Shown here: positions 29,931 through 43,116 of the stretch, in pieces
Layout of the letters: each line of letters starts with the position of its first letter
Position numbering within the stretch: the first letter of the stretch is position 1
Assembly (NCBI RefSeq): GCF_038049935.1
Contig: NZ_CP145886.1
Span: forward strand, 2,426,501-2,490,500
Direction: 5' to 3'
DNA from: Rossellomorea sp. y25
GTDB lineage: Bacteria; Bacillota; Bacilli; Bacillales; Bacillaceae_B
Length of the DNA: 64,000 nt
Translations under genes and position numbers: made by a program
The notes under the pieces: generated by a model
The model's input: the letters and a program-made list of their open reading frames with translations, nothing else
Told to the model about the DNA's origin: nothing
Database searches by the model: none

Positions 29931-29962
29931 AAAAAAACAACCCTCCATTTTGGAAAGTTGTT
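29931..29962 (-). terminator. SAM riboswitch terminator
   Basis: Minus-strand CAACTTTCCA pairs with TGGAGGGTTG (two G-U pairs) around AAA, followed by eight T. Confidence 0.9.
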
Positions 29963-29974
29963 CAGGTAAGGATA

Positions 29975-30243: not shown

Positions 30244-30645
30244 TCAAAATAATTGAAAGATTAATTTACCCTCGATCACTTTTTTCTGGTCCTGGTTGAC
30301 CGCAAAAACTTTAAAATGTATGAGATCATCCTGTTTTTCTGATACTTCTGCAATCAATGTAATGACATCGTTCAATAAAACCATCCCTTTAAACCGGACG
30401 GTGTACTCTTTGATATATCCTTCTTCATAAAGATCACTAAAAAGCTTGGAGACATTGCCCATCGTCCACATGCCATGAGCAATGACTCCTGGAAGACCCA
30501 GTTTATGCGCCTCCTCATCGATCGTATGAATGGGGTTATAATCCCCCGAGGCTCCTGCATATTTGATTAAGTCGATTCTCGAGACTGGACCTAACTCAAC
30601 AAGGGGAAGGATTTCACCTATATTAAAGGATGATAGTTTAGTCAT
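30244..30645 (-). CDS. MaoC-like (R)-specific enoyl-CoA hydratase
   Basis: The 133-residue hot-dog-fold protein has the hydratase-2 motif YAGASGDYNPIHTIDEEA near residues 29-46, with the catalytic Asp and His of GDYNPIH. The following GLPGVIAHGMWTMGNVSKL is the usual substrate tunnel segment. It probably forms a heteromer with the product of the upstream gene, which has the MaoC N-terminal fold; the two overlap by four bases (ATGA). It hydrates a trans-2-enoyl-CoA. It is the last gene of the acyl-CoA cluster, and no clear terminator follows. Confidence 0.87.
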   Translation of the reverse strand: MTKLSSFNIGEILPLVELGPVSRIDLIKYAGASGDYNPIHTIDEEAHKLGLPGVIAHGMWTMGNVSKLFSDLYEEGYIKEYTVRFKGMVLLNDVITLIAEVSEKQDDLIHFKVFAVNQDQKKVIEGKLIFQLF

Positions 30646-31091
30646 ATTCCCAACCTCTCTTTAACCGCTTCAGTGATAATGACAATCGCTTCGGAAGTGA
30701 AAACCCTTTTCCCTCCTGAATCTTCACCGATGTCTTCTATTACAAGAAAACCAAGTGTTCCACCCGATCCTTTCCGTTCATAGTAATCTTTTATTTTCGT
30801 GTAACACTGAATACATTCCCCGACCTTCAGTGGTCTTTCATAGTGAAAAGATTGTTCACCATGAATTAACCCGACGTTCGGTAAATGAAAACCTTCAATC
30901 GTTCCATAGTCGAACACTCTGGGAAAAGTGGGGGGAGGGATATTCCCCCTGAACCTGGATCTCTTTCCTGCTTCTTTATCAACATAAATGGGATTGAGAT
31001 CTCCAATGGCTTCGGCAAACTTACGGACCGCTCCTTTTTCCACACAATTTTCTACGGAAGTTGAGCGTTTACCAATATAAGATTCAAACAT
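30642..31091 (-). CDS. MaoC N-terminal-type (FAS1-like) dehydratase subunit
   Basis: The 149-residue product is a MaoC_dehydrat_N-type hot-dog protein: FAEAIGDLNPIYVDKEAGKR near residue 25, IPPPTFPRVF and GLIHGEQSFHYERPLKVGE near residue 75. Such subunits (compare mycobacterial HadA-like proteins) pair with a catalytic MaoC partner, here encoded directly downstream. I use the ATG at 31091, which follows GAGGTG by six bases; a GTG at 31100 is the alternative. Substrate is inferred to be an enoyl- or hydroxyacyl-CoA of the pathway. Confidence 0.82.
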   Translation of the reverse strand: MFESYIGKRSTSVENCVEKGAVRKFAEAIGDLNPIYVDKEAGKRSRFRGNIPPPTFPRVFDYGTIEGFHLPNVGLIHGEQSFHYERPLKVGECIQCYTKIKDYYERKGSGGTLGFLVIEDIGEDSGGKRVFTSEAIVIITEAVKERLGI

Positions 31092-31112
31092 ATCCTTCAC
31101 CTCTTTCTCCCT

Positions 31113-31871
31113 TTAGGCTTTCGGCCCGCCAGCTACGTATAGGACTTGACCGTTAACGAATGACGAGCTTTCATCCGCAAAAAACGCCACTGCATTCGCT
31201 ATATCTTCCGGCTGCCCGCTCCTTCCTACAGGAATTCCTTGAAGACTCGCTTCCACCAGTTGTTCAAAGGGGATTCCGATCCGCTTCGCCGTTTCTCTAG
31301 TCATTTCCGTTTCGATGAATCCGGGGGCGACTGCATTGGTCGTAATGCCCAGAGGTCCAAGCTCTATTGCCAGAGTTTTCGTTAAACCTTGAAGACCTGC
31401 TTTAGCGGTAGCGTAATTTGCCTGTCCGCGGTTACCGAGTGCAGAGGTAGACGAGATATTAATAATACGGCCATACCTGTTCTTCACCATATGACCTTGC
31501 GCTGCCTTTGCTACGTTAAATGATCCTTTCAAATGCACATCCATGACCGTTTGCCAATCGTTATCGGTCATTTTAAATAGCAAATTGTCTCTGATGACTC
31601 CTGCATTGTTGATGACAATATCAACGGAGCCGAAAGTTTCATAGACTTCGTTTATGGCCTCTTCTACTTCCCGGGATTCTATTACATTCGCAACTTTTGT
31701 ATATATTTCATACTTTTTCAATTCCTCGCTGATTTCCAAAAGTGCCTCTTCATTCACGTCAATGATGGCAACCATTGCCCCTTCTTCTGCAAAGAGCTTT
31801 GCAATCGCTTTACCGATCCCCCGGCTCCCGCCTGTTACTAAAGCTACTTTTCCTCTAAATCTATCACCCAT
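31113..31871 (-). CDS. SDR-family 3-hydroxyacyl-CoA / 3-oxoacyl reductase (FabG-like)
   Basis: The 252-residue classical SDR has the coenzyme motif TGGSRGIG near residues 14-21, NNAG near residue 88, the catalytic Ser in ISSTSALG and the YATAKAG Tyr-Lys pair near residue 151, all intact. An acidic Asp after the second strand (IIDVNEEA) suggests NAD(H) preference. It would interconvert a 3-hydroxyacyl-CoA and its keto form. It lies between the second acyl-CoA dehydrogenase and the MaoC pair, with AGGGAGG before the start. Confidence 0.88.
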   Translation of the reverse strand: MGDRFRGKVALVTGGSRGIGKAIAKLFAEEGAMVAIIDVNEEALLEISEELKKYEIYTKVANVIESREVEEAINEVYETFGSVDIVINNAGVIRDNLLFKMTDNDWQTVMDVHLKGSFNVAKAAQGHMVKNRYGRIINISSTSALGNRGQANYATAKAGLQGLTKTLAIELGPLGITTNAVAPGFIETEMTRETAKRIGIPFEQLVEASLQGIPVGRSGQPEDIANAVAFFADESSSFVNGQVLYVAGGPKA

Positions 31872-31892
31872 TCACATTACCTCCCTATTCCT

Positions 31893-33068
31893 TTAAACAA
31901 ATTGGCCCACTTTTACATGCCCTTTTAATAGATTCCGTGAAATGATCAGTTTTTGAATTTCATCAGTACCATCATAAATCCGCCACAATCTTGCTTCACG
32001 ATACCAGCGTTCGATGGGAAGCTCTCTTGTGTAGCCCATCCCTCCGTGAATTTGAAGGACCCGATCCACTACCCGATTGCCCATATTCGATCCGTACAGC
32101 TTGGCAATCGATGCAACATGGCGATTATCTTCTCCTTGATCCAGCGTGAATGCTGCATTTAGCACAAGCCATCTGGCAGCTTCAATTTCCACGGCAGAGT
32201 CAGCGATCTTCCATTGAATCGCTTGTCTATCCGCGATTGGCTTTCCAAATGTCTCCCTTTCCTTTGAATAGTCAATCGCCATTTGAAGTAAGCGTTCCGC
32301 TGCTCCTACCGCTTGTGCCCCTACAATCCACCGTGCGAACCCGATCCATTCCAGGCCAAGATTGTAGCCACCATCAATTTCACCCAGAATATTTTCTTCA
32401 GGCACCCGCACGTCATCAAAAAACAGACTGGCCGGTCCCCATTCCCCCATGGTATGAATGTATTCAGATGTCCATCCCATCCTACGATCGGCAATAAAAC
32501 AGGTTACTCCGTCCCGACCCGTTCGCCGATGCTTTTCCTTATCGGTCACCGCCATGACCATGACAAAGTCTGCTTCATTTCCGCCCGTAATAAAGGTTTT
32601 TTCACCATTTAACACCCACTCATTTCCATCCTTCACTGCGGTCATCCGAATGTTTTGAGTATCGGATCCAGCTCCCGGTTCCGTCATGGCGAAGCAGGAC
32701 TTTTTCTCTCCGTTTATAGTGGGGATCAAATAGTTCTTTTTCTGTTCTTCGTTGGCATAGTATAGGATGTTGTCTGCATAACCACCGAAACTGAAAGGCA
32801 CAAAGGTTTTGGAGATTTCCATATATACAATGGCCATCATCATTTGCCCGAGATCCGCTCCGCCGTACTCTTCTGGTGTATTGATCCCCCAGAACCCTGC
32901 TTCCTTTGCTTTTAACTGTAGCTCATTTCTTTTTTCCGGGGAAAGACTTGGTTTTCCTTCCCGTTCATTTCTTAGCACTTCATTTTCTAAAGGTATAAGT
33001 TCTTTCTCAACAAATTTACGGATGGTTTTTTGAATCATCCTTTGTTCATCTGATAACCGTAAGTTCAT
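31893..33068 (-). CDS. Acyl-CoA dehydrogenase (conventional type)
   Basis: The 391-residue FAD enzyme has typical signatures: CFAMTEPGAGSDTQNIRMTA near residue 119, NGEKTFITGG near residue 147, ERETFGKPIADRQAIQWKIAD near residue 265 and the C-terminal YRDA-like RLWRIYDGTDEIQKLIISR. The G-T-D-E-I-Q ending is that of ordinary acyl-CoA dehydrogenases, unlike the second homologue at 39.5-40.7 kb. It would introduce the 2,3-double bond into an acyl-CoA. The site is AGGGGGGAA before the ATG. Confidence 0.92.
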   Translation of the reverse strand: MNLRLSDEQRMIQKTIRKFVEKELIPLENEVLRNEREGKPSLSPEKRNELQLKAKEAGFWGINTPEEYGGADLGQMMMAIVYMEISKTFVPFSFGGYADNILYYANEEQKKNYLIPTINGEKKSCFAMTEPGAGSDTQNIRMTAVKDGNEWVLNGEKTFITGGNEADFVMVMAVTDKEKHRRTGRDGVTCFIADRRMGWTSEYIHTMGEWGPASLFFDDVRVPEENILGEIDGGYNLGLEWIGFARWIVGAQAVGAAERLLQMAIDYSKERETFGKPIADRQAIQWKIADSAVEIEAARWLVLNAAFTLDQGEDNRHVASIAKLYGSNMGNRVVDRVLQIHGGMGYTRELPIERWYREARLWRIYDGTDEIQKLIISRNLLKGHVKVGQFV

Positions 33069-33090
33069 ACCGGTTCCCCCCTATAAAGTC

Positions 33091-34071
33091 CTAGAATTTT
33101 GGTTGCAGGATTACCTTTCCTACCGTTTTTCTTGCCTGCATGAGTGAATGAACCTTTGCTGCTTCTTCTAAAGGAAACACATGACCAACCGTTACTTTCA
33201 ATTCCCCGGACGCGACGTAATGAAAGATTTCATGAAGGGTTTTCTGGGTAAGTTCGGAATCTCTCATGAGAGGAGGGAGGAAGAACCCGATAACAGATTG
33301 ATTCTTTGCCATCAATGAAGAAGGATAAAATCTGCTCTGCTCCCCGCTTGCTACTCCGTAAATGACCATTCTTCCGAAATAGTCGAGACATTTTAACGTT
33401 TTATAGAAAATGTCACCGCCAGCCATCTCCAATGCCAGATTTACGCCCTTTCCATTTGTTGCTTCTAAGACGTCTGCTTCCCAGCCATCCTGAGTGTAGT
33501 TGACTAATACGTCTGCCCCCATTTCCCCAGCAAGACGTAACTTTTCCTCTGTACTGGCCGTGGCAATCACCTTACCTGCTCCAAAACGTTTTGCCAGTTG
33601 GACGGCAAGCAGGCCAACGCCACCAGCAGCTGCATGAATGAGGACGGCTTCTCCCTGTTGCACTCTTCCCAATGTTTTCAAAATATGATAGGCACTTAAA
33701 CCCTGAACAGGGATGGCGGCAGCTTCTTTGAAATCCAATCCATATGGGAGGGGGATCACCGAACGCTCATCTGTCAGGGCAAATTCTGCATAACCTCCGG
33801 AATCCATCATGGCTACAACCCGGTCTCCCTTTCTTACTCTCGTCACATCTTCTCCCACTTCAGTGACGATTCCCGCCACTTCAGAACCCGGAATATATGG
33901 GAGTGGGGTTTTTACCACATATTGCCCTTCCCGTCTTGCTGTATCAGCATAATTGACTGCAGATGCATGAACTTCGATAAGGACTTCTCTACCTTGAGGC
34001 ACCGGAACATTTATATCCACATTCTCTAATACATTAGGGCTTCCAAACTCTTTAAACTGAATGGCTTTCAT
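33091..34071 (-). CDS. Zinc-less MDR-family NAD(P)H:quinone oxidoreductase
   Basis: The 326-residue medium-chain reductase has VEVHASAVNYADTARREGQY near residue 30, IPGSEVAGIVTEVGEDV near residue 59, and the Rossmann motif HAAAGGVGLLAVQLAKRFGA near residue 145. The structural and catalytic zinc cysteines of alcohol dehydrogenases are absent, so this is the QOR/crotonyl-type branch. In an acyl-CoA pathway it may reduce a quinone or an enoyl intermediate. Neighbours are an enoyl-CoA hydratase and an acyl-CoA dehydrogenase gene. Confidence 0.86.
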   Translation of the reverse strand: MKAIQFKEFGSPNVLENVDINVPVPQGREVLIEVHASAVNYADTARREGQYVVKTPLPYIPGSEVAGIVTEVGEDVTRVRKGDRVVAMMDSGGYAEFALTDERSVIPLPYGLDFKEAAAIPVQGLSAYHILKTLGRVQQGEAVLIHAAAGGVGLLAVQLAKRFGAGKVIATASTEEKLRLAGEMGADVLVNYTQDGWEADVLEATNGKGVNLALEMAGGDIFYKTLKCLDYFGRMVIYGVASGEQSRFYPSSLMAKNQSVIGFFLPPLMRDSELTQKTLHEIFHYVASGELKVTVGHVFPLEEAAKVHSLMQARKTVGKVILQPKF

Positions 34072-34082
34072 CCTAATCCCTC

Positions 34083-34859
34083 CTATTTCCCTGAAAAAGA
34101 TGGTCTTCTTTTTTCTTTAAATGCTGAAACTCCCTCAGCATGATCTTCAGTTGAAATCATCATTGTTTGTGTGATTCGTTCTTGTTCAAGTATTTCATTC
34201 AATGATGTGGTGAATGAACGATCAATCATTTTCTTCATCATTCCATATGCTTTACTTGGACCCAAGGCTAATTCCTGAGCCCAATCAGTTGTTTCCTCTT
34301 CAAGTCTTTCAGAAGGGACAATACGGTTTACCACACCTAAGTCATACATTCTTCTTACAGCCACAGGTTCTGCTGAAAAGAAGAATTCTTTCGCTAAATG
34401 AGGACCGATGATGCGTGGAAGAAAATACGAACCTCCGCCATCGGATATAAGACCTACTTTAGAGAAGCTTAAAGCAAATTGACTATCTTCTGAAGCGATA
34501 ATCAAATCGCAGGAGAGGGCCAGATTAAATCCGGCACCTGCTGCAAAGCCGTGTACCGAGGCGATGACCGGTTTATCTATTTCCTTAATCGCTTTAATGC
34601 ATGTATTTAATATCCCGATATGTTCATAGACTTCTGTTGATGTGGCGCTCCCCATTGTTTTCACGTCGCCGCCTGCAGAAAAGGCCCTCCCGGCACCGCG
34701 AATCACAATGGCTCTAATTTCCTCATTATGTTCTGCTTGCTGGAGTGCTTCGACGATTCCCGTAAGCATGCTCTCATCAAAGGAATTCAAGCTATCCGGT
34801 CTGTTTAATGTCAATGTAAGCACCCGGTCAGTGGTTTCAATTAGTAAAGAGGTTTTCAT
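34083..34859 (-). CDS. Enoyl-CoA hydratase/isomerase family protein
   Basis: The 258-residue crotonase-fold protein has LTLNRPDSLNSFDESML near residue 16, the oxyanion-hole sequence RGAGRAFSAGGDVKTMG near residue 54, and SVHGFAAGAGFNLALSCDLIIASED near residue 99. The usual Glu of hydratases around the AVRRMYDLGVVNRIV segment is not certain, so isomerase or another crotonase reaction is possible. I use the ATG at 34859, 12 bases after AAGGAG; the longer frame from 34916 would overlap the upstream kinase gene. Confidence 0.88.
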   Translation of the reverse strand: MKTSLLIETTDRVLTLTLNRPDSLNSFDESMLTGIVEALQQAEHNEEIRAIVIRGAGRAFSAGGDVKTMGSATSTEVYEHIGILNTCIKAIKEIDKPVIASVHGFAAGAGFNLALSCDLIIASEDSQFALSFSKVGLISDGGGSYFLPRIIGPHLAKEFFFSAEPVAVRRMYDLGVVNRIVPSERLEEETTDWAQELALGPSKAYGMMKKMIDRSFTTSLNEILEQERITQTMMISTEDHAEGVSAFKEKRRPSFSGK

Positions 34860-34881
34860 CGTTTCGATCATCTCCTTGTCT

Positions 34882-35958
34882 TTATTCCTGGCGCTCGAAT
34901 GCAGCTTGATTTCCAAGGGTGATTAAAGATTCCGCAAACCGATCAAATTGAGAAAATCGTGGATCCCTGGTTTGCCCCATCTTAAAGCGGTAATAGATTT
35001 GTTGCACAATGACTGCGAGCTTAAAGTAAGCAAAAGATAAATAAAAATGGATATGGTTCACGTCCCTGCCGCTTTTCCTGGCATACTCTTCGATAAATTG
35101 CCTTCTGCTGTAAAAACCGTCCATGATCGTTACCGGAGGCTTTCCAAGACCGAACTTTAATAACTCGGGATCATCATTCTGTATCCAATACCCCATAGCG
35201 ACACCTAAATCTGCAAGGGGATCGCCAACGGTCGCCATCTCCCAGTCAAATAACCCCACCATGGATTTCATGTCAGAAGAAAACATGGCATTGTTTAATT
35301 TATAATCATAATGAATGATTGTCGATTCAGCATTTCCTGGTACATTCTTTATCAACCAGTGTGTCAGCTGATCTACTTCACCAATTTCACTTGTTTTGGC
35401 ACGCTCGTAACGATTGATCCACCCGTGTACTTGTCTTTCCATAAAATGTTCGGGCTTACTGATTTCATTAAGAGTTGTTTTTCTGTGATCAATGGAATGA
35501 AGTTCCACCAGTTTAGAAACCATTTCCTCCGATATTCTCCTGCAGACATCTGGGGTTACATGGAGATGCGGGGGAAAGGAAGTATCAAATACTTCACCCC
35601 TTTTTCGCTCCATGATAAAAAATGGGCTGCCTACGATCCTTTCATCATCAGAGAATACATACGGCTCCGGTGTAACCCCGAATAGTGGTTGAATTTCTGA
35701 AAGAATCCTAAATTCTCTTTTCATATCATGAGCTTTTGGAGCCACGGGTCCCAAGGGAGGCCGTCTCAGAACACCTTCCCATTCACCCATTTTTAATAAA
35801 TACGTCAGATTTGAGTGTCCCGCAGAAAATTGCCTTATGGATAGGTCTTCTTGAATGAAGTTAGGGAAATGCTCATTCAAGAAGTATTTTAAATTGGTTA
35901 CATTCAGTTCTTCTCCTTGTCGCACCGCTACCGTTTCATATCCTGTTTTTTCAGTCAT
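34882..35958 (-). CDS. APH-type phosphotransferase, ACAD10/11-kinase or LvaA-like
   Basis: The 358-residue protein kinase-like enzyme has the aminoglycoside-phosphotransferase fold: LSIRQFSAGHSNLTYLLKMG near residue 40, the catalytic loop IIHYDYKLNNAMF near residue 215, and the metal-binding GLFDWEMATVGDPLADLG near residue 237. This subgroup occurs fused to acyl-CoA dehydrogenase in animal ACAD10/11 and as separate LvaA in Pseudomonas, where it phosphorylates a 4-hydroxyacyl-CoA. A matching dehydrogenase is encoded in the same cluster, so the same chemistry is likely. AGGGAGGGG precedes the ATG. Confidence 0.87.
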   Translation of the reverse strand: MTEKTGYETVAVRQGEELNVTNLKYFLNEHFPNFIQEDLSIRQFSAGHSNLTYLLKMGEWEGVLRRPPLGPVAPKAHDMKREFRILSEIQPLFGVTPEPYVFSDDERIVGSPFFIMERKRGEVFDTSFPPHLHVTPDVCRRISEEMVSKLVELHSIDHRKTTLNEISKPEHFMERQVHGWINRYERAKTSEIGEVDQLTHWLIKNVPGNAESTIIHYDYKLNNAMFSSDMKSMVGLFDWEMATVGDPLADLGVAMGYWIQNDDPELLKFGLGKPPVTIMDGFYSRRQFIEEYARKSGRDVNHIHFYLSFAYFKLAVIVQQIYYRFKMGQTRDPRFSQFDRFAESLITLGNQAAFERQE

Positions 35959-35973
35959 GTTACCCCTCCCTAA

Positions 35974-36390
35974 TTAAGAATATTCAGTCTTTTCTGATTG
36001 AAGATGAATGCTTAACTGCTCTTTTAACAACTCAGGGATCATTTTGCTTTGCTGCTCAAGAAAATCAAAATAAACGATCACCGCATTTCCCTTTGCTATC
36101 AATTGATGGGTGTTCGCACATAAGATATCATGCTCTAATTGAAAGCTCTTTGATCCAATTTTTGATAGATAGGTGGTGATCTTCAGCTCTTGATTAAAAT
36201 ATCCTTGGGATATAAAGTCACATTTGGTTGAAGCCAGAATAAATCGCCAGTCTTTCACATCCATATCAAATCCGAGAGCTTGAAAGAATCTAATTCTTGC
36301 TTCTTCTAAATAAACAAAATAAGTTGTATTGTTGATATGACCTAATGCATCCGTTTCGCAAAATCTACTCGTTACCATGATGGTTTCCAT
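35974..36390 (-). CDS. Acyl-CoA thioesterase (4HBT/YbgC-type hot-dog)
   Basis: The 138-residue protein has the 4-hydroxybenzoyl-CoA thioesterase-like start, SRFCETDALGHINNTTYFVYLEEARIRFF in part (RFCETDALGHINN), with the catalytic Asp and His. It would hydrolyse acyl-CoA and so release CoA or an acid product. I use the ATG at 36390; AAGGAGAGG lies upstream of it, whereas the in-frame ATG at 36411 has no site and lies inside the TetR operator region. It is the first gene downstream of operator 1. Confidence 0.85.
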   Translation of the reverse strand: METIMVTSRFCETDALGHINNTTYFVYLEEARIRFFQALGFDMDVKDWRFILASTKCDFISQGYFNQELKITTYLSKIGSKSFQLEHDILCANTHQLIAKGNAVIVYFDFLEQQSKMIPELLKEQLSIHLQSEKTEYS

Positions 36391-36413
36391 TTGCACGCCC
36401 TCTCCTTCCATAA

Positions 36414-36431
36414 ATACTAACCAGTCGGTAT
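36414..36431 (-). promoter_or_regulatory. TetR-type palindromic operator, copy 1
   Basis: Minus-strand ATACCGACTGGTTAGTAT, an imperfect 18-base palindrome. It differs from copy 2 (41594-41611) by one base, and the flank GAATTAA(A)C is shared too. It lies between tetR and the thioesterase gene. Confidence 0.8.
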
Positions 36432-36471
36432 GTTAATTCGAAAGGAAATCCTGTAGATGATTTCCCATTTA

Positions 36472-37035
36472 CTATGACTCAATCCCTTTTAATACCATAT
36501 CGACAAAAGTCCGGGCAATTTCATGATCGGATTTCGCACCATCAGGTTTATACCATTGGTAGCTCCAATTCATCATTCCGAGAATTCCAAAAGCTACAAT
36601 CGATACGTCAAAGACCTCATGAAAGTCCCCGTTCTTCCTACCTTCTTTCAGGAGAGTTTCAATATTATATCGATACATATCCCGCTTAGGCTCAATTGCC
36701 TCCAGACTTTCCTTGCTCAAGTGCCTCATTTCTCTAAAAAATACTTTGGCACTGCCCCCTTGCTCTTTAATGTCCAGAATGGAAAGATGGACAATATCAT
36801 ATAGTTTTTCCATGTAGCTCTTCCGGTCATCCCCAAGAACTCTTTCCTGTTTAGATAATAAGCCATCAATATAGCTCATGTGAATTTCCCTTAACAGCTC
36901 TTCCTTACTGGAAAAGTAGTAATAGAATGTTCCTTTCGTTACACCAATGGATTCTACGATGTCCTGGATGGAAGTAACAGTAAACCCCTTCTCATCAAAT
37001 AAGCGTACAGCATGTTCTGTAAGTTTTTCTTTCAT
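36472..37035 (-). CDS. TetR/AcrR-family transcriptional regulator
   Basis: The 187-residue protein has the N-terminal TetR helix-turn-helix (residues about 5-50): TEHAVRLFDEKGFTVTSIQD followed by IGVTKGTFYYYFSSKEELL. The C-terminal ligand-binding region is helical and divergent. It lies in the middle of the acyl-CoA cluster and probably represses it, with an acyl-CoA or related intermediate as inducer. Two near-identical palindromes flank the regulated gene groups. The ATG at 37035 is preceded by GAGAGGA; a TTG at 37050 is less likely. Confidence 0.9.
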   Translation of the reverse strand: MKEKLTEHAVRLFDEKGFTVTSIQDIVESIGVTKGTFYYYFSSKEELLREIHMSYIDGLLSKQERVLGDDRKSYMEKLYDIVHLSILDIKEQGGSAKVFFREMRHLSKESLEAIEPKRDMYRYNIETLLKEGRKNGDFHEVFDVSIVAFGILGMMNWSYQWYKPDGAKSDHEIARTFVDMVLKGIES

Positions 37036-37079
37036 CTGAAATCCTCTCAATCTGCAAATATCACCTGAATTATATCATA

Positions 37080-38678
37080 TTACCTCACGCTTTCACGCAG
37101 AGCTCTTCTTAATATTTTCCCAACACTCGTCTTAGGAAGCTCATCACGGAACTCGATGATTCTTGGTACCTTGAATGAAGACATATTCTCCTGACAGAAT
37201 CGAACCAATTCTCCTTCAGATGCCTTTTCCCCTGACTTTAAGACGACCACTGCCTTAACGGTTTCTCCTCTATAAGAGTCCGGGACTCCGATTACAACAG
37301 CTTCCTGTACGCTTGGGTGCTCGTAAATGACTTCCTCGACTTCCCTCGGATACACATTGTATCCTGATGCAATGATCATATCCTTCTTTCGGTCTACTAT
37401 CGATACATACCCTTCATCATCCATCCGGGCGATGTCCCCTGTGTAAAGCCAGCCATCTCGAAGGGCGTGGGCAGTCTCTTCAGGTAAATTCCAGTAGCCT
37501 TTCATGACTTGAGGGCCTTTAATTATGAGTTCGCCCACATCCCCTAAAGGAACCTCCTTAGTACCAGTCGCTAAATCGACTACCTTATAGTCTGTGGATG
37601 GAAAGCCGATTCCGACGGTTCCCGGCTTTCTTTCTGCAAAAGCTGGGTTGCAATGAGTCGTTGGTGAAGCCTCTGATAAACCGTATCCCTCTAATATTTT
37701 CGCTCCTGTTTTCTTCTCGAATTGATTCAATAACTCTACTGGCATCGGGGCACTTCCGCTATTACAAATCTTTATAGAATCAATTCCGTACTCTTCTGCC
37801 TGTGGATGATTGGTGATTGCCACGTACATCGTCGGCACACCTGGGAACAGTGTAGGCTGTTCGTTTTTAATCGTTGTTAATACTTCGGTCAATTCAAACC
37901 TGGGGAGCAAGATCATTTCATTGGCCGAATAGACCGCAAAGTTCATACAGGAATTCATCCCAAACACATGAAAAAACGGAATCACACTCAGGCTTCTCTC
38001 TTTTCCTCTTTCGATGCTCTCTTTAAAGAAAAGTTGACTCTGAATGACATTTGAAAGAATGTTTTTATGAGTGAGCATAACTCCCTTGGATGCACCGGTT
38101 GTCCCACCTGTATATTGAAGGACTGCCACGTCTTCTTCAGGATTTATCGACACGGGCGATACTTTACCATCCCCCACCCTTAAAAATTCATCAAAGGAGT
38201 AGTCCGAAGCACTGTATTCCTTCTGGAGGCTGACTACGATAATCGTCTTGATCTCTGTTTCCTGTTGTATAGATTTAACCATAGGATAAAAACGGTCCAA
38301 TACGACGATTGTCTCAGCTCCCGAGTCATTAAGCAGATGGATTAATTCCCTTTCAACCGACATCGGATTCACCTGTGTGACAATTCCCCCGAATGTAAGG
38401 ATTCCATAATAAGAGATCACATATTGCGGACAGTTCGGGAGCATGATCGCCACCCTGTCTCCTTTCTTCAATCCAATATGTTGAAAGGATGAAGCAAGCA
38501 TGGAGACGGCACCTTGAAGTTCAACATACGTGATCCGTTTTTGATAAAAGCTGATACATGGATGATCCGGGAATGAAGAAACGGTATGTCGAAGCATTTC
38601 TGGTATTGAAAAATCCACCGCAGGAATTTCAGTCTCATACGCTAAAGGGTAATGACTGAGCCAAGATTTAGTTGTCAT
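37080..38678 (-). CDS. Long-chain fatty acid-CoA ligase (LcfA/FadD-like)
   Basis: The 532-residue ANL enzyme has the P-loop-like LQYTGGTTGASKGVMLTH near residue 190, the A5 motif EGYGLSEASPTTHCNP near residue 335, GWLYTGDIARMDDEGYVSIVDRKKDM near residue 413 in part, and the A10 lysine in TSVGKILRRALRE at the C-terminus. It would load the pathway's acid substrate onto CoA. It lies between tetR and an SDR gene, separated from tetR by 44 bases. Site: GGAAGGAA. Confidence 0.92.
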   Translation of the reverse strand: MTTKSWLSHYPLAYETEIPAVDFSIPEMLRHTVSSFPDHPCISFYQKRITYVELQGAVSMLASSFQHIGLKKGDRVAIMLPNCPQYVISYYGILTFGGIVTQVNPMSVERELIHLLNDSGAETIVVLDRFYPMVKSIQQETEIKTIIVVSLQKEYSASDYSFDEFLRVGDGKVSPVSINPEEDVAVLQYTGGTTGASKGVMLTHKNILSNVIQSQLFFKESIERGKERSLSVIPFFHVFGMNSCMNFAVYSANEMILLPRFELTEVLTTIKNEQPTLFPGVPTMYVAITNHPQAEEYGIDSIKICNSGSAPMPVELLNQFEKKTGAKILEGYGLSEASPTTHCNPAFAERKPGTVGIGFPSTDYKVVDLATGTKEVPLGDVGELIIKGPQVMKGYWNLPEETAHALRDGWLYTGDIARMDDEGYVSIVDRKKDMIIASGYNVYPREVEEVIYEHPSVQEAVVIGVPDSYRGETVKAVVVLKSGEKASEGELVRFCQENMSSFKVPRIIEFRDELPKTSVGKILRRALRESVR

Positions 38679-38729
38679 AAAATCATTCCTTCCATTTCAG
38701 ATTACTCATATACTAATTCTGAATGTACC

Positions 38730-39485
38730 TTAAAAGATTAATCCTCCACCATCAACAGATAGTGTGGCACCGGTTATAAAGGAAGCCTCATCAGAAGCTA
38801 AAAACAGAATCGCTGATGCGACTTCTTCTGGATTTCCAATCCGTCTTAGAGCATTTGATTGAGAGATCGCCGACCATTTCTTCTCATCTTTCTTCCAACC
38901 ATTGATGATGTTCGTATCAATAACCCCAGGCGCTACTGCATTCACTCGAATATTATCCTTTCCATATTCCAGGGCAGCATTTTGTGTCAGTAGGATGACA
39001 CCACCTTTTGCCGAATTGTAGGCTGACACGTATTTGCGGCCCTTTAAACCGAGAAGGCTCGATACATTCACAATTACACCATCTTTTTTCATCAATTCAG
39101 GTATGGCATACTTCATTCCCAGAAAAATGCTCTTTAGGTTTGTATCCAATACGGCATCCCATTCGTTTTCGTCCAGATCAATACTCCTGACTTCCGACTG
39201 TCCGATTCCTGCATTATTGATAAGGATATCGAAACCTCCGAAATGTTCTACCGTTGTTTGTACGAGGGATTGAATGCTTTCACTTTCCCGCACATTCGTC
39301 TTGACAAAGAGTGCACTTCCTTTTTTTTCGTGAATGAGTCTGACCGTTTCTTCACCACTTGCATCATCCAGATCTGCTACTACAACAGCAGCACCTTCTT
39401 TTGAGAACCTTAGTGCTGTAGCGCGCCCAATTCCTCCGCCCCCACCTGTAATAACGGAAACTTTCCCTTGTAATCTCATCATCAT
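38730..39485 (-). CDS. SDR-family oxidoreductase
   Basis: The 251-residue classical SDR has TGGGGGIGRATALRF near residue 15, NNAGIG near residue 91, and the active-site Ser (VSSLLG) and YNSAKGG Tyr-Lys pair near residue 155. The Asp-Leu-Asp after strand 2 (VVADLDDASG) favours NAD+. It could oxidise a hydroxyl group of the pathway substrate. It is 12 bases from the ACAD10/11-type dehydrogenase gene and therefore co-translated. Confidence 0.87.
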   Translation of the reverse strand: MMMRLQGKVSVITGGGGGIGRATALRFSKEGAAVVVADLDDASGEETVRLIHEKKGSALFVKTNVRESESIQSLVQTTVEHFGGFDILINNAGIGQSEVRSIDLDENEWDAVLDTNLKSIFLGMKYAIPELMKKDGVIVNVSSLLGLKGRKYVSAYNSAKGGVILLTQNAALEYGKDNIRVNAVAPGVIDTNIINGWKKDEKKWSAISQSNALRRIGNPEEVASAILFLASDEASFITGATLSVDGGGLIF

Positions 39486-39497
39486 CCAACTCTCTTC

Positions 39498-40727
39498 CTA
39501 GCTCTCTACAGGAGAAGCTTTTTCGTGTTTTCTCAATTCCAATTTTGCCAATTGGGCGCGGTGTACTTCATCAGGTCCATCAGCAAGGCGCAGTGTACGG
39601 GCATTTGCCCATTGAGCTGCCAACGTGTAGTCATCCGATACTCCTGCTGCCCCGAACGCTTGAATGGCCCGGTCAATCACACGTAAAGCCATGGAAGGAG
39701 CCACCACTTTAATCATGGCGATTTCCTGTTTCGCTGCTTTATTGCCGACTGTATCCATCATGTAGGCTGCTTTCATTGTGAGAAGTCGGGCTTGTTCGAT
39801 TTCAATTCTTGAATTCGAAATCCATTCTCTTACGACCCCCTGATTTGCCAACGCCATTCCAAATGCATCACGATCCTGAACACGCTTACATAATTCTTCA
39901 AGTGCCCGCTCTGCTGCCCCGATTAATCTCATACAATGATGGATTCGCCCCGGTCCTAATCTTCCTTGTGCAATAGCGAAACCTTTTCCTTCACCCCAGA
40001 TCATATTTTCTAGAGGGACTCTCACTTCGGTAAAGGTGATTTCTCCATGACCATGAGGGGCATGATCGTAACCGAACACAGGAAGCATACGCTCAATTTT
40101 CACACCCGGTGTATTAAGTGGGATGATAATCATTGATTGCTGTTCATGACGACTCGCTTCTGGATCCGTTTTTCCCATCAAAATTGAAAAGCTGCACCGA
40201 GGGTCACCGGCGCCAGATGACCACCATTTCTTCGCGTTAATGATGTATTCGTCTCCATCCCGGATGATACTCGCCTTTATATTCGTTGCATCGGAAGACG
40301 CGACATCAGGCTCAGTCATAGAGAAACACGAACGGATATCACCATTTAGAAGTGGGATAAGATATTGTTGTTTTTGAGTGGGCGTCCCATAACGTTCCAA
40401 CACTTCCATATTTCCTGTATCAGGAGCATTGCAATTAAACACTTCAGGGCCGATCAGAGATCTCCCCATGATTTCACAAAGAGGGGCGTATTCTACATTA
40501 TTGAGCCCTGCCCCATATTCGCTTTGAGGAAGAAATAGGTTCCATAATCCTTGTTTCTTCGCTTCAGCTTTTAATTCTTCCATGATTGTAGGAACCCCAC
40601 TCCAGCGGGTTTCATGCTGATTGAGCTGATTTTCATAGAGGGATTCGTTCGGGTACACGTATTCTTCCATAAAACGGGATATTTTATTTTGATATTCTTG
40701 TACTTTTGGAGAATAGGAGAAATCCAT
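39498..40727 (-). CDS. Acyl-CoA dehydrogenase of the ACAD10/11 (LvaC-like) branch
   Basis: The 409-residue protein is a full FAD acyl-CoA dehydrogenase ([21 protein letters not shown] in part, near residue 135; [11 protein letters not shown] near residue 163). The C-terminal signature is [22 protein letters not shown] instead of the usual YEGTDEIQ-type ending, and [17 protein letters not shown] precedes it; both are marks of the ACAD10/11 group. In that group the enzyme eliminates phosphate from a 4-phosphoacyl-CoA made by a kinase domain. The cognate kinase is encoded at 34882-35958. I use the ATG at 40727, nine bases after AAAGG. Confidence 0.9.
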
Positions 40728-40773
40728 TACATCCATCCTTTCTTAACCACCACATGTAATACTTCCCACTTGG

Positions 40774-41547
40774 TTACATCGCTGAGGATCCACCATCCAC
40801 GACGAGAACTGAACCAGTGACAAAGTCAGATGCACGAGCCGCCAGGAAAAGTGCCGCTCCTTTTAAATCATCTTCGGTACCGAATCGATTTAATGGTGTT
40901 CCGTTTAAAATGGCTTCCCCTGCATGAGATAGAATTCCTTTTGACATTTTTGTTGGAAAGAATCCCGGTGCAATTGCATTCACATGAATTCCGCGGGATC
41001 CCCATTTCACGGCTAGATCCTTCGTGAAATTGATGACCGCTGCTTTACTGGTGCTATAGCCAATGGCATCCATATAACGTGGGTCTGTACCTTGAAGACC
41101 TGCTACGGAAGCAATATTAATGATTTTTCCTCCCTGTTGCTCGAGCATTAATTTCCCCACGGCCTGTGACATAATAAAAGTACCGTTTACATTCACATTG
41201 ATCACTTTATGCCAAGCGTCAAGAGGCATTTCTTCTGCAGGTGCCCCCCAGGATGCACCACTGTTATTCACTAAAATATCAATGCGGCCGAAAACCTTCT
41301 TCGTTTCATCTACAACGTGCTGTACATCTTCAGGATTAGTGACATCACATTTCAATGCCAGTGATTGGACACCAATTTCTTCTAATTCCTTCTTCACGTC
41401 TTCACATGCTTCAACGTTTCTCGAGCATACTACAACGTTTGCCCCCGCCTCAGCAAACCCTGTCGCGATTTGTTTTCCGAGCCCCCTGCCTCCTCCAGTC
41501 ACAAGGGCAACTTTACCTGATAAATCAAATAATTCATTCACATGCAT
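40774..41547 (-). CDS. SDR-family oxidoreductase, first gene of the acyl-CoA cluster
   Basis: The 257-residue classical SDR has TGGGRGLGKQIATGFAE near residue 17, VNNSGASWG near residue 93 (Ser in place of the usual Ala of NNAG), and the catalytic IASVAG plus YSTSKAA near residue 165. It resembles gluconate 5-dehydrogenase-type SDRs, but the context argues for a hydroxyacyl-CoA or hydroxy acid. It has an AGGAGG site. It lies directly downstream of operator 2 and of the predicted promoter. Confidence 0.87.
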   Translation of the reverse strand: MHVNELFDLSGKVALVTGGGRGLGKQIATGFAEAGANVVVCSRNVEACEDVKKELEEIGVQSLALKCDVTNPEDVQHVVDETKKVFGRIDILVNNSGASWGAPAEEMPLDAWHKVINVNVNGTFIMSQAVGKLMLEQQGGKIINIASVAGLQGTDPRYMDAIGYSTSKAAVINFTKDLAVKWGSRGIHVNAIAPGFFPTKMSKGILSHAGEAILNGTPLNRFGTEDDLKGAALFLAARASDFVTGSVLVVDGGSSAM

Positions 41548-41593: not shown

Positions 41594-41611
41594 ATACTAA
41601 CCGGTCGGTAT
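41594..41611 (-). promoter_or_regulatory. TetR-type palindromic operator, copy 2
   Basis: Minus-strand ATACCGACCGGTTAGTAT, an imperfect 18-base palindrome overlapping the expected transcription start of the cluster. Confidence 0.82.
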
Positions 41612-41621
41612 GTTTAATTCT

Positions 41622-41650
41622 ATAGTAATGAATATACTCTGAATTTTCAA
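41622..41650 (-). promoter_or_regulatory. Candidate promoter of the acyl-CoA cluster
   Basis: Minus-strand TTGAAA (41650-41645) and TACTAT (41627-41622), 17-base spacer; operator 2 begins 10 bases further downstream. Confidence 0.5.
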
Positions 41651-41730: not shown

Positions 41731-43116
41731 TTAAGCTTCTGCTTCAATGATTTCTTTGTTGTACGTTTCGTTATCCAAATCCCCTGTCACTTTACTTGTT
41801 ATGATTCCAGATGTCATTGCACCACTCACATTAACTGCTGTTCGCCCCATATCAATCAAAGGTTCAACAGAAATTAATAGCCCCGCTAACGCTACTGGAA
41901 GATCCAAGGCGGATAGAACAAGGATAGCAGCAAACGTAGCTCCGCCTCCAACGCCAGCAACACCGAAGGAGCTGATGGCCACCACTACGATGAGCGTAAG
42001 AATAAAGGAAGGGGTTAATGGATTAATCCCGACAGTCGGTGCAATCATCACTGCAAGCATGGCAGGATACACACCTGCACAACCGTTCTGACCGATGGAT
42101 AACCCGAATGATCCTGAGAAGTTGGCAATCCCTTCTGAAACACCCAATTTATTCTTTTGTGTCTGAATGTTAAGTGGAAGTGTTCCGGCACTGGATCTCG
42201 ACGTAAAAGCAAATGCCAATACAGGAAAAACTTTTTTCATGTAAGTGACCGGATTTAAGCCAAGAAGAGTAAGCATGATTAAGTGAATGGCAAACATGAT
42301 AATCAAGGCCACATAAGACGCTCCAACAAATTCTCCAAGCTTCATGATACTATCAAAATTACTCAATGCCACTGTTTTAGCCATGATGGCCAACACACCG
42401 AATGGAGTGAGTCGTAACACCAAAGTCACGATTCTCATCACTACAGCATAGACGGAATCAACGATCTTCTTGAAAAATTCAGCAGCCTCAGGCTCTTTGC
42501 GCTGAGCCCCCAAGTAAGCGATACCGATGAAAGCTGCGAAAATTACGACAGCGATCGTTGAGGTTGCTCTTTGTCCCGTCAAGTCCAGGAACGGATTCGC
42601 AGGTAAAAGCTCGAGAATTTTTTGAGGATAACTCTGGCCTTCTAAAGCTGTTGCTCTCTCCTCTAATTGAACACCCCTTGCCGTTTCTGCATCTCCTTGA
42701 TCAATCTGGATCGCTTCCAAGTCAAAAGCCACGGTCGTAGCAATTCCGACAGCAGCAGCAACGGCTGTTGTGCCTACCAGCAATCCAATGATCAGCACGG
42801 AGATCTTCCCTAAATTATGCGACCGTTTTAATTTAGTGAAGGCTGATATTATGGACACGAACACTAATGGCATGACAATCATTTGCAGAAGTTTAATATA
42901 GCCGGTTCCGACGATGTTAAACCATTCGATCGATTGTGTGACATTTTCATCCCCTGCTTCATATACCCACTGTAATCCAAGACCAAATAAAATTCCCAGC
43001 CCCAGAGCGGTAAACACCCGTTTTGAAAATGAAACATTTTTCCTTTGCATATAAAGTAATACACCAATGAGAACAAGAAACACCAAAATGTTTAACAAAA
43101 CAAACCAGACATTCAT
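41731..43116 (-). CDS. tcyP: L-cystine:cation symporter (TcyP-like, DAACS family)
   Basis: The 461-residue dicarboxylate/amino acid:cation symporter-family protein has about eight membrane helices plus the re-entrant hairpins. The family's serine-rich motif FTSRSSAGTLPLNIQTQ lies near residue 305, and the second hairpin region GVGGGATFAAILVLSALDLPVALAG near residue 395 (partly quoted: GVGGGATFAAILVL). The pattern, including MQRKNVSFSKRVFTALGLG at the N-terminus, matches TcyP rather than glutamate carriers. It supplies cystine, in keeping with the nearby sulfate assimilation operon, but is separately transcribed. Confidence 0.9.
   Translation of the reverse strand: MNVWFVLLNILVFLVLIGVLLYMQRKNVSFSKRVFTALGLGILFGLGLQWVYEAGDENVTQSIEWFNIVGTGYIKLLQMIVMPLVFVSIISAFTKLKRSHNLGKISVLIIGLLVGTTAVAAAVGIATTVAFDLEAIQIDQGDAETARGVQLEERATALEGQSYPQKILELLPANPFLDLTGQRATSTIAVVIFAAFIGIAYLGAQRKEPEAAEFFKKIVDSVYAVVMRIVTLVLRLTPFGVLAIMAKTVALSNFDSIMKLGEFVGASYVALIIMFAIHLIMLTLLGLNPVTYMKKVFPVLAFAFTSRSSAGTLPLNIQTQKNKLGVSEGIANFSGSFGLSIGQNGCAGVYPAMLAVMIAPTVGINPLTPSFILTLIVVVAISSFGVAGVGGGATFAAILVLSALDLPVALAGLLISVEPLIDMGRTAVNVSGAMTSGIITSKVTGDLDNETYNKEIIEAEA

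Follow-up and report, generated by a model that had tools for sequence, protein, structure and literature searches.

A run of genes for acyl-coenzyme A (CoA) metabolism in Rossellomorea sp. y25 includes a kinase of the aminoglycoside phosphotransferase (APH) fold, which raises the question of what such an enzyme might phosphorylate in that setting. The genes lie in a window of 64,000 nucleotides (positions 2,426,501 to 2,490,500 of contig NZ_CP145886.1; the window is this whole stretch), within a genome that is a single contig of 4.63 Mb and whose closest named relatives, as judged by the kinase, are Rossellomorea aquimaris strains (92-93% identity). The window sequence and its open reading frames (ORFs) hold 13 intact genes, all on the minus strand and running from 41547 to 30244 and either separated by no more than 60 bp or overlapping slightly, in agreement with the single leftward cluster at 30244-41547 proposed in a first-pass annotation. 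Pfam and NCBIfam assignments (NCBIfam alone for the final four genes) give, beside the APH-fold protein, two acyl-CoA dehydrogenases (ACADs), three short-chain dehydrogenases/reductases (SDRs), a crotonase, a TetR-family regulator with a TetR_C_24 domain, a 4HBT thioesterase, an AMP-forming ligase and a pair of MaoC proteins. The families named in the earlier inventory were all recovered, but that inventory had left out one gene, qor (33091-34071); the short gene names used here are our own.

Our analyses make it very probable that the cluster is an operon under TetR control for the breakdown of 4-hydroxy carboxylic acids, possibly also for 4-keto acids by way of its SDRs, and support the kinase/ACAD pathway put forward earlier. 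Such 4-hydroxy acids can arise from gamma-lactones and from hydroxylated fatty acids. In the proposed route, the ligase would form the CoA ester, SdrT and/or SdrM would set the 4-keto/4-hydroxy state, and the APH-fold kinase would phosphorylate the 4-hydroxyl of the acyl-CoA; an ACAD11-type flavoenzyme would then expel phosphate to give a 2-enoyl-CoA, with no net oxidation. Hydration by the MaoC pair to the (R)-3-hydroxyacyl-CoA and oxidation by SdrF to the 3-ketoacyl-CoA would follow, with cleavage by a thiolase encoded elsewhere in the genome, where there are seven PF00108 matches, and further rounds would draw on AcadS, the crotonase and Qor. All of these activities, as well as position 4 for the hydroxyl and the order of the SDR steps, we infer from the gene set and from the catalytic and substrate-binding residues that are read in the sequence.

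The kinase and the two acyl-CoA dehydrogenases

The predicted 4-hydroxyacyl-CoA kinase, kin (34882-35958, minus strand; catalytic D218), carries the motifs IIHYDYKLNN and FDWE reported there previously. Its best match in the PDB is 9o56 (495 bits), followed by mouse ACAD11 (158 bits) and 3dxp (138 bits), with the next, a distant APH-like entry, at 54 bits. The kinase domain of ACAD11 has D220 and N225 as its catalytic Asp and Asn, and R86 and R176 contact CoA (PMC12440821). Equivalents of all four residues are conserved, by alignment, in the window kinase and in 33 other rows of its family, ACAD11 included, and those of R86 and R176 are absent from five other APH-like Bacillales proteins in the same alignment; LvaA, LvaC and ACAD10 are absent from the alignments and trees. 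The residues thus argue that kin is of the ACAD10/11-LvaA type, the group to which it had been assigned at first pass.

In the kinase tree, the nearer Bacilli kinases and 9o56 form one supported group, which adjoins kinases of other Bacilli, Deinococcus, Azospirillum, Streptomyces, Pseudoalteromonas and Ideonella, and mouse ACAD11 clusters with 3dxp and a Sphingobium kinase. Because the five other APH-like proteins, when used for rooting, have very long branches, which fall in two places within the tree, family membership is taken from residues and scores and not from the rooting. As a separate observation, 9o56 was deposited as an aminoglycoside phosphotransferase and is probably misnamed, since its score, its IHYDYKLNN motif and both CoA-binding Arg residues place it in the same kinase family; a literature search found no paper naming this entry.

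The first ACAD gene, acad11, had been correctly recognised, although its start was placed at 40727, which is the second in-frame ATG of a gene spanning 39498-40736 (minus strand). Its product, a predicted 4-phosphoacyl-CoA phosphate-eliminating enzyme of the ACAD11/LvaC type, scored 472 bits with 4hr3 (a putative ACAD), 470 bits with human ACAD11 and 460-463 bits with mouse ACAD11, the next other ACAD reaching 136 bits. In ACAD11 the active-site residues are R626, R631, H634, R637 and the catalytic D753; Ala or Leu changes of R626, H634 and R637 are the most disruptive, with accumulation of the phospho-intermediate, and ordinary ACADs are inactive on 4-phosphohexanoyl-CoA (PMC12440821). By alignment, these five residues correspond to R259, R264, H267, R270 and D386 of acad11, and all five are kept in 67 of 67 Bacillales relatives, drawn from 80 related loci, and in 10 of 10 plasmid-borne relatives. 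The 80 loci, being the best 80 of 331 candidates, over-represent close relatives, and contig ends truncate some of them. The product of acad11 thus carries the residue signature of the phosphate-eliminating ACADs of the ACAD10/11-LvaC type, as the earlier assignment to the ACAD10/11 group had proposed.

The five-residue set is absent from the FadE-type ACADs that are neighbours in other genera (VRLAE) and from the second ACAD of the cluster, acadS (31893-33068, minus strand; WRVQD). The latter had been described as a standard ACAD, which does not hold, as it has an Asp (IYDGTDEI) at the position of the catalytic Glu of ordinary ACADs. The same Asp is found in 22 of 22 acadS relatives among the 80 loci, though the ACAD11 phosphate-binding triad is absent.

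Distribution, companion genes and rival readings

In a class sample of 299 genomes spread evenly over the Bacilli (E-value at most 1e-50 for the kinase and at most 1e-80 for the dehydrogenase), the kinase was found in 83 genomes, the dehydrogenase in the identical 83 and neither in the other 216, a strict pairing that is not explained by chance. The 95 kinase places in this sample have the dehydrogenase within 15 kb at 74 and within 300 bp at 21; in the window, the two genes are unfused and 3.5 kb apart. Both proteins occur in 35 of 61 nearer genomes and neither in 26 (strong E-values, counted by eye).

When the genes of the 80 loci were grouped into families (at least 48% identity, single linkage), the most frequent were the kinase (80 loci), TetR (75), acad11 (67), sdrT (65), qor (56), the ligase (55), tes (54), a ComB-like gene (48) and ech (43). 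The MaoC, FabG and acadS genes occur in 21-23 loci each, a HAD-type 3-hydroxyacyl-CoA dehydrogenase in 32 and a FadE-type ACAD in 29, and in the four pairs tested the former never co-occur with the latter two (p 1e-6 to 1e-5, not corrected for kinship, with 27-29 loci holding neither member of a pair). We read this exchange as replacement of an (R)-specific beta-oxidation set by an (S)-specific one, with the same enoyl-CoA as starting point for both. Three reduced loci (L052, L054 and, from Cytobacillus spongiae, L140) keep sdrT, acad11, tetR, tes, kin, sdrF (two partial matches in L054) and the MaoC pair, and are without the ligase, sdrM, ech, qor and acadS; their content is as expected if the enoyl-CoA arises directly from phosphate elimination.

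Some of the records deserve comment in their own right. L140 (1-19068) lies in a 690-kb record labelled as a C. spongiae plasmid and is colinear with the thiamine, cystine-transporter, kinase-cluster and sulfate genes of the window, so that the record may be chromosomal or a Rossellomorea-type replicon. A locus filed as Pseudomonas sp. ISL-84 (L071:1-19333) has a cluster of Bacillaceae type and a kinase that falls among those of Bacillaceae, and its contig is probably mislabelled or contaminated. A plasmid relative from Cupriavidus necator has the ACAD without an annotated kinase beside it, and a plasmid search with the Ideonella kinase gave no Pseudomonas lva record among the matches listed.

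A phosphatase often stands next to the kinase in other genomes. PF04029 genes (2-phosphosulfolactate phosphatase, ComB) lie within 10 kb at at least 50 of the 95 kinase places and within 300 bp at at least 41, against a rough estimate of ~0.3 expected in all, and a ComB-like gene directly follows the kinase in 38 of the 80 loci. In a tree of hand-chosen ComB members, one branch (100/97) splits 16 that are kinase-linked from 12 that are not, and genomes G130 and G288 have one member each on either side of it. Of ten plasmid-borne kinase loci, seven (L141, L142, L154, L155, L157, L158 and L162, three of them from Deinococcota) carry a histidine phosphatase gene as the first or second gene past the kinase; L156 has a HAD hydrolase close to the kinase, and L140 and L143 have no phosphatase near it. 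A histidine phosphatase has also been noted with the lva cluster of P. citronellolis (PMC6692424), and the HAD domain of ACAD10 is reported to have negligible phosphatase activity (PMC11342911). A literature search found no paper linking these phosphatases to the kinase, and in the two mammalian papers (PMC12440821, PMC11342911) term searches for histidine phosphatase and for Bacillus drew a blank. PF04029 is without a match in the window genome, where PF00300 has nine, all at least 70 kb from the kinase.

We put at about even the chance that these genes represent a third component of the system, namely a dedicated phosphatase, recruited repeatedly from unrelated folds, which would clear stalled 4-phospho-acids or 4-phosphoacyl-CoA. 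The part would be taken by the ComB-like clade in Bacilli, by the histidine phosphatase in several Pseudomonadota, an actinomycete and Deinococcota, by the nearby HAD protein in a haloarchaeon and by the fused HAD domain in ACAD10, whereas the window lineage would be without the phosphatase and keep only the thioesterase. Its probability is lowered by the lack of the tie between tes and ComB that is expected for joint clearance: tes is present in 34 of 48 loci with ComB and in 20 of 32 without (p 0.47). Among the 61 relatives, the kinase is present in 16 of 16 genomes with PF04029, and PF04029 in 0 of 26 genomes without the kinase (by eye); in the class sample, however, at least 64 of the 216 kinase-free genomes hold ComB, and genome-wide co-presence was therefore dropped, with only adjacency and the clade being used. 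A histidine phosphatase was also not taken as the rule in Bacilli without a nearby ComB: of 45 such kinase places, ~5 have one within 15 kb, and at one of these the match is a weak fragment (by eye).

Lactone-opening enzymes are another candidate neighbour. A PF02126 gene lies on the same strand, three to seven genes downstream of the kinase, in 6 of the 80 loci. One such protein scored ~500 bits with phosphotriesterase/organophosphorus hydrolase entries in the PDB, which we take to be Geobacillus enzymes, and 444 bits with DR0930. A Deinococcus cluster holds an SMP-30/gluconolactonase-family gene. In both mammalian studies, gamma-lactones are the source of 4-hydroxy acids (PMC12440821, PMC11342911).

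Several findings weigh against a 4-hydroxy acid operon. The 13 genes, all of which are assigned to other families, include no evident LvaB-like gene, and no thiolase is among them; no Pfam or NCBIfam model fixes the substrates of the SDRs and the ligase. At 21 of the 95 kinase places, some of them at contig ends, there is no acad11 within 15 kb. Of the 61 relatives, 12 have PF02126, only two of them within 20 kb of the kinase (by eye), and a PF02126 search of the window genome gave no match; on these counts, together with the 6 of 80 loci, a lactonase was dropped as a general neighbour of the cluster. The substrate's chain length was likewise not taken from the ligase family, as no model settles it.

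How far do these points favour other explanations? The same kinase and elimination chemistry could act on a hydroxyl elsewhere, as in a 5-hydroxy acid (from a delta-lactone) or a branched or ring-derived acid, and a C5 acid would indeed not call for as many SDR and ACAD genes as the cluster has; the conserved triad is, however, the one modelled and mutated for the 4-phosphate in ACAD11, and we consider this alternative unlikely. It is more improbable still that the cluster serves ordinary fatty-acid or phenylacetate-type metabolism in which the kinase has an unrelated role. The Thermus PfmR operon, considered below, has been described in such terms, and the best model for ech is the alternative type of oxepin-CoA hydrolase (239 bits, below the cut-off of 300), but the kinase is strictly paired with the phosphate-eliminating type of ACAD and, as noted above, ordinary ACADs are inactive on the 4-phosphohexanoyl substrate. 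An aminoglycoside-modifying enzyme, as its fold family and the name given to 9o56 by its depositors might suggest, has almost no claim on the evidence: the APH(3') model of NCBIfam gives 25.7 bits (i.e. 26 against a cut-off of 205), and the operon context, the CoA-binding Arg residues and the pairing with acad11 all argue otherwise. The first-pass annotation had named placement with aminoglycoside or choline kinases as grounds for refuting its reading, and kinases of either type are ruled out by the APH(3') score, the PDB scores and the CoA-binding Arg residues. A 4-hydroxy acid operon thus remains the reading that we prefer.

Operators and the remaining genes

The 18-bp sequence ATACCGACCGGTTAGTAT lies 5' of the first gene, sdrT, at 41594-41611, and recurs with one mismatch, as ATACCGACTGGTTAGTAT, at 36414-36431 in the gap that separates tetR from tes, ahead of tes-kin (both on the minus strand). 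Two such sites in the window compare with 0.01 expected by chance; a whole-genome scan gave one further site, with three mismatches, and the reversed control pattern also gave one. The motif was derived by aligning sdrT upstream regions, which means that its occurrence in front of sdrT is no independent evidence. With up to four mismatches, 77 of the 80 loci hold operator sites, 153 in total, of which 144 are outside genes, and the reversed motif gave 14; the sites mostly stand directly before acad11 (45), tes (25), sdrT (21), the HAD-type dehydrogenase (21) and kin (14). Repression by TetR (tetR, 36472-37050, minus strand) of two transcription starts, via these two copies of one operator, is our prediction, and its release would probably be brought about by a CoA-ester intermediate. 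A promoter-like pair, TTGAAA-17-TACTAT, 5' of sdrT (41622-41650, minus strand) comes from a consensus scan only and is weak by itself, with 19 such sites found in the region and 24.3 expected by shuffling; a terminator-like hairpin 3' of maoB (29935-29963, minus strand) likewise comes from a consensus scan only, with 11 found in the region and 9.4 expected.

The other genes, all on the minus strand, are described in the order of reading. The first, sdrT (40774-41547, 257 aa), encodes an SDR of the PRK08213 ('gluconate 5-dehydrogenase') group (395 bits, cut-off 279) and accompanies acad11 in 65 of the 67 loci that have the latter, and sdrM (38730-39485, 251 aa; NCBIfam scan) a further SDR. The AMP-forming acid-CoA ligase (37080-38678, 532 aa) has long-chain-fatty-acid--CoA ligases as its best models and passes the PRK06187 subfamily cut-off (480 against 476 bits). 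The longest ORF of the 4HBT-type thioesterase gene, tes (35974-36411), starts at an ATG at 36411, three bases from the operator, which is probably too far upstream (36390-36411), the true start probably being 36390. That of the crotonase gene, ech (34083-34916), starts at a TTG at 34916 and overlaps the kinase, and is likewise probably too far upstream (34859-34916), with a true start probably internal, near 34859. The product of qor, an NADPH:quinone-reductase-like or zinc-type dehydrogenase, scored 278 bits with the PIG3-family model, just below its cut-off of 297. A FabG-type SDR, the predicted (R)-3-hydroxyacyl-CoA dehydrogenase, is encoded by sdrF (31113-31871), followed by maoA (30642-31100; MaoC-like, FAS1_DH_region) and maoB (30244-30645; MaoC-like). 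As read from the sequence, maoB keeps GDYNPIH, which we take to be the hydratase motif, and maoA has GDLNPIY, so that the pair looks like a HadAB-type heterodimer. Upstream of the cluster, a symporter gene (41731-43116) weakly matches DctA/GltP models; its counterpart in L140 is annotated as an L-cystine transporter, which fits the sulfate genes close by.

Relation to known systems

The chemistry and the enzyme families are already known, whereas the Bacilli architecture, the operator, the tie to PfmR and the phosphatase pattern are new as far as our searches of the open-licence literature go, in which no Bacillus version of the system was found, as judged from titles and the first part of abstracts; homologues of lvaABCD have been found in Alpha-, Beta- and Gammaproteobacteria (PMC6692424). 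The operator, the tie to PfmR, the exchange of beta-oxidation sets and the companion phosphatases are all absent from the first-pass annotation. If our reading is correct, a route known from Pseudomonas (2017) and mammals (2024-2025) would extend to more than a quarter of the sampled Bacilli (83 of 299), there under another type of regulator and with a beta-oxidation module that can be exchanged. The Thermus PfmR operon would gain a concrete function, some phosphotriesterase-like lactonases would gain a natural setting, and genes labelled as aminoglycoside phosphotransferases would be better named metabolic kinases. The companion-phosphatase prediction would bear on the unexplained HAD domain of ACAD10.

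The PfmR (TTHB023) sites of T. thermophilus are TACCGACCGNTNGGTN and TTTACCGACCGGTTGG (PMC7022988), and the operators before the two operons are alike, TACCGACCGGTTAG in the window and TACCGACCGGTTGG in Thermus, with a similar TACCGACCGGTT core. Like the window cluster, the PfmR operon (TTHB023-TTHB012), described as one of fatty-acid or phenylacetate metabolism (PMC7022988, PMC5597230), has a TetR_C_24 regulator (32% identity to the window TetR, with the same C-terminal domain), a kinase, a ligase, a thioesterase, MaoC, a FabG-type SDR and an SDR 49% identical to sdrT, a value that also holds for the SDR of the Deinococcus cluster. On pTT27 its content is TetR, ACAD, a short gene with a serine-hydrolase domain, SDR, MaoC, PaaI thioesterase, a short ligase, SDR, ACAD, phosphotransferase, DUF6285 and histidine phosphatase. 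The differences are that the kinase is only 22% and the kinase-adjacent ACAD 35% identical to those of the window, the latter being about as similar to acadS (36.5%) as to acad11 (35.2%), that DUF6285 and the histidine phosphatase are present, and that the ligase is short (314 aa). That ACAD has an R....R..HCMR helix and reads LRLDPARLTHCMR and YDGPSEVH, so that the five positions are R, R, H, R and D in turn, as judged by eye outside the residue alignment. With low identities and alike content, the PfmR operon is a system of the same type as the window cluster without being a near duplicate of it. The 116-aa DUF6285 protein between the Thermus kinase and histidine phosphatase (L162:5694-6044) recalls Pseudomonas LvaB in position and size.

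Compared by description, the Pseudomonas lva operon (LvaA-LvaG, LvaR; PMC6692424, PMC11342911, PMC12440821) is like the window cluster in having a separate kinase and ACAD, an SDR and an acid-CoA ligase. The window regulator is, however, a TetR protein and not the sigma-54-dependent LvaR, the LvaB partner (~12 kDa) is not evident in the window as judged by family assignments only, and the thioesterase, MaoC pair, second ACAD, crotonase and Qor are extras. The mammalian ACAD10 and ACAD11 (PMC12440821, PMC11342911) are single fused proteins, in contrast to the two separate genes of the window, where the operon is TetR-regulated and adds a ligase, SDRs and a MaoC pair; the window kinase aligns with ACAD11 at low identity (158 bits) and the ACAD much better (470 bits). 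Across these differences in gene arrangement, the window kinase and dehydrogenase have the same catalytic, CoA-binding and phosphate-binding residues as the mammalian enzymes.

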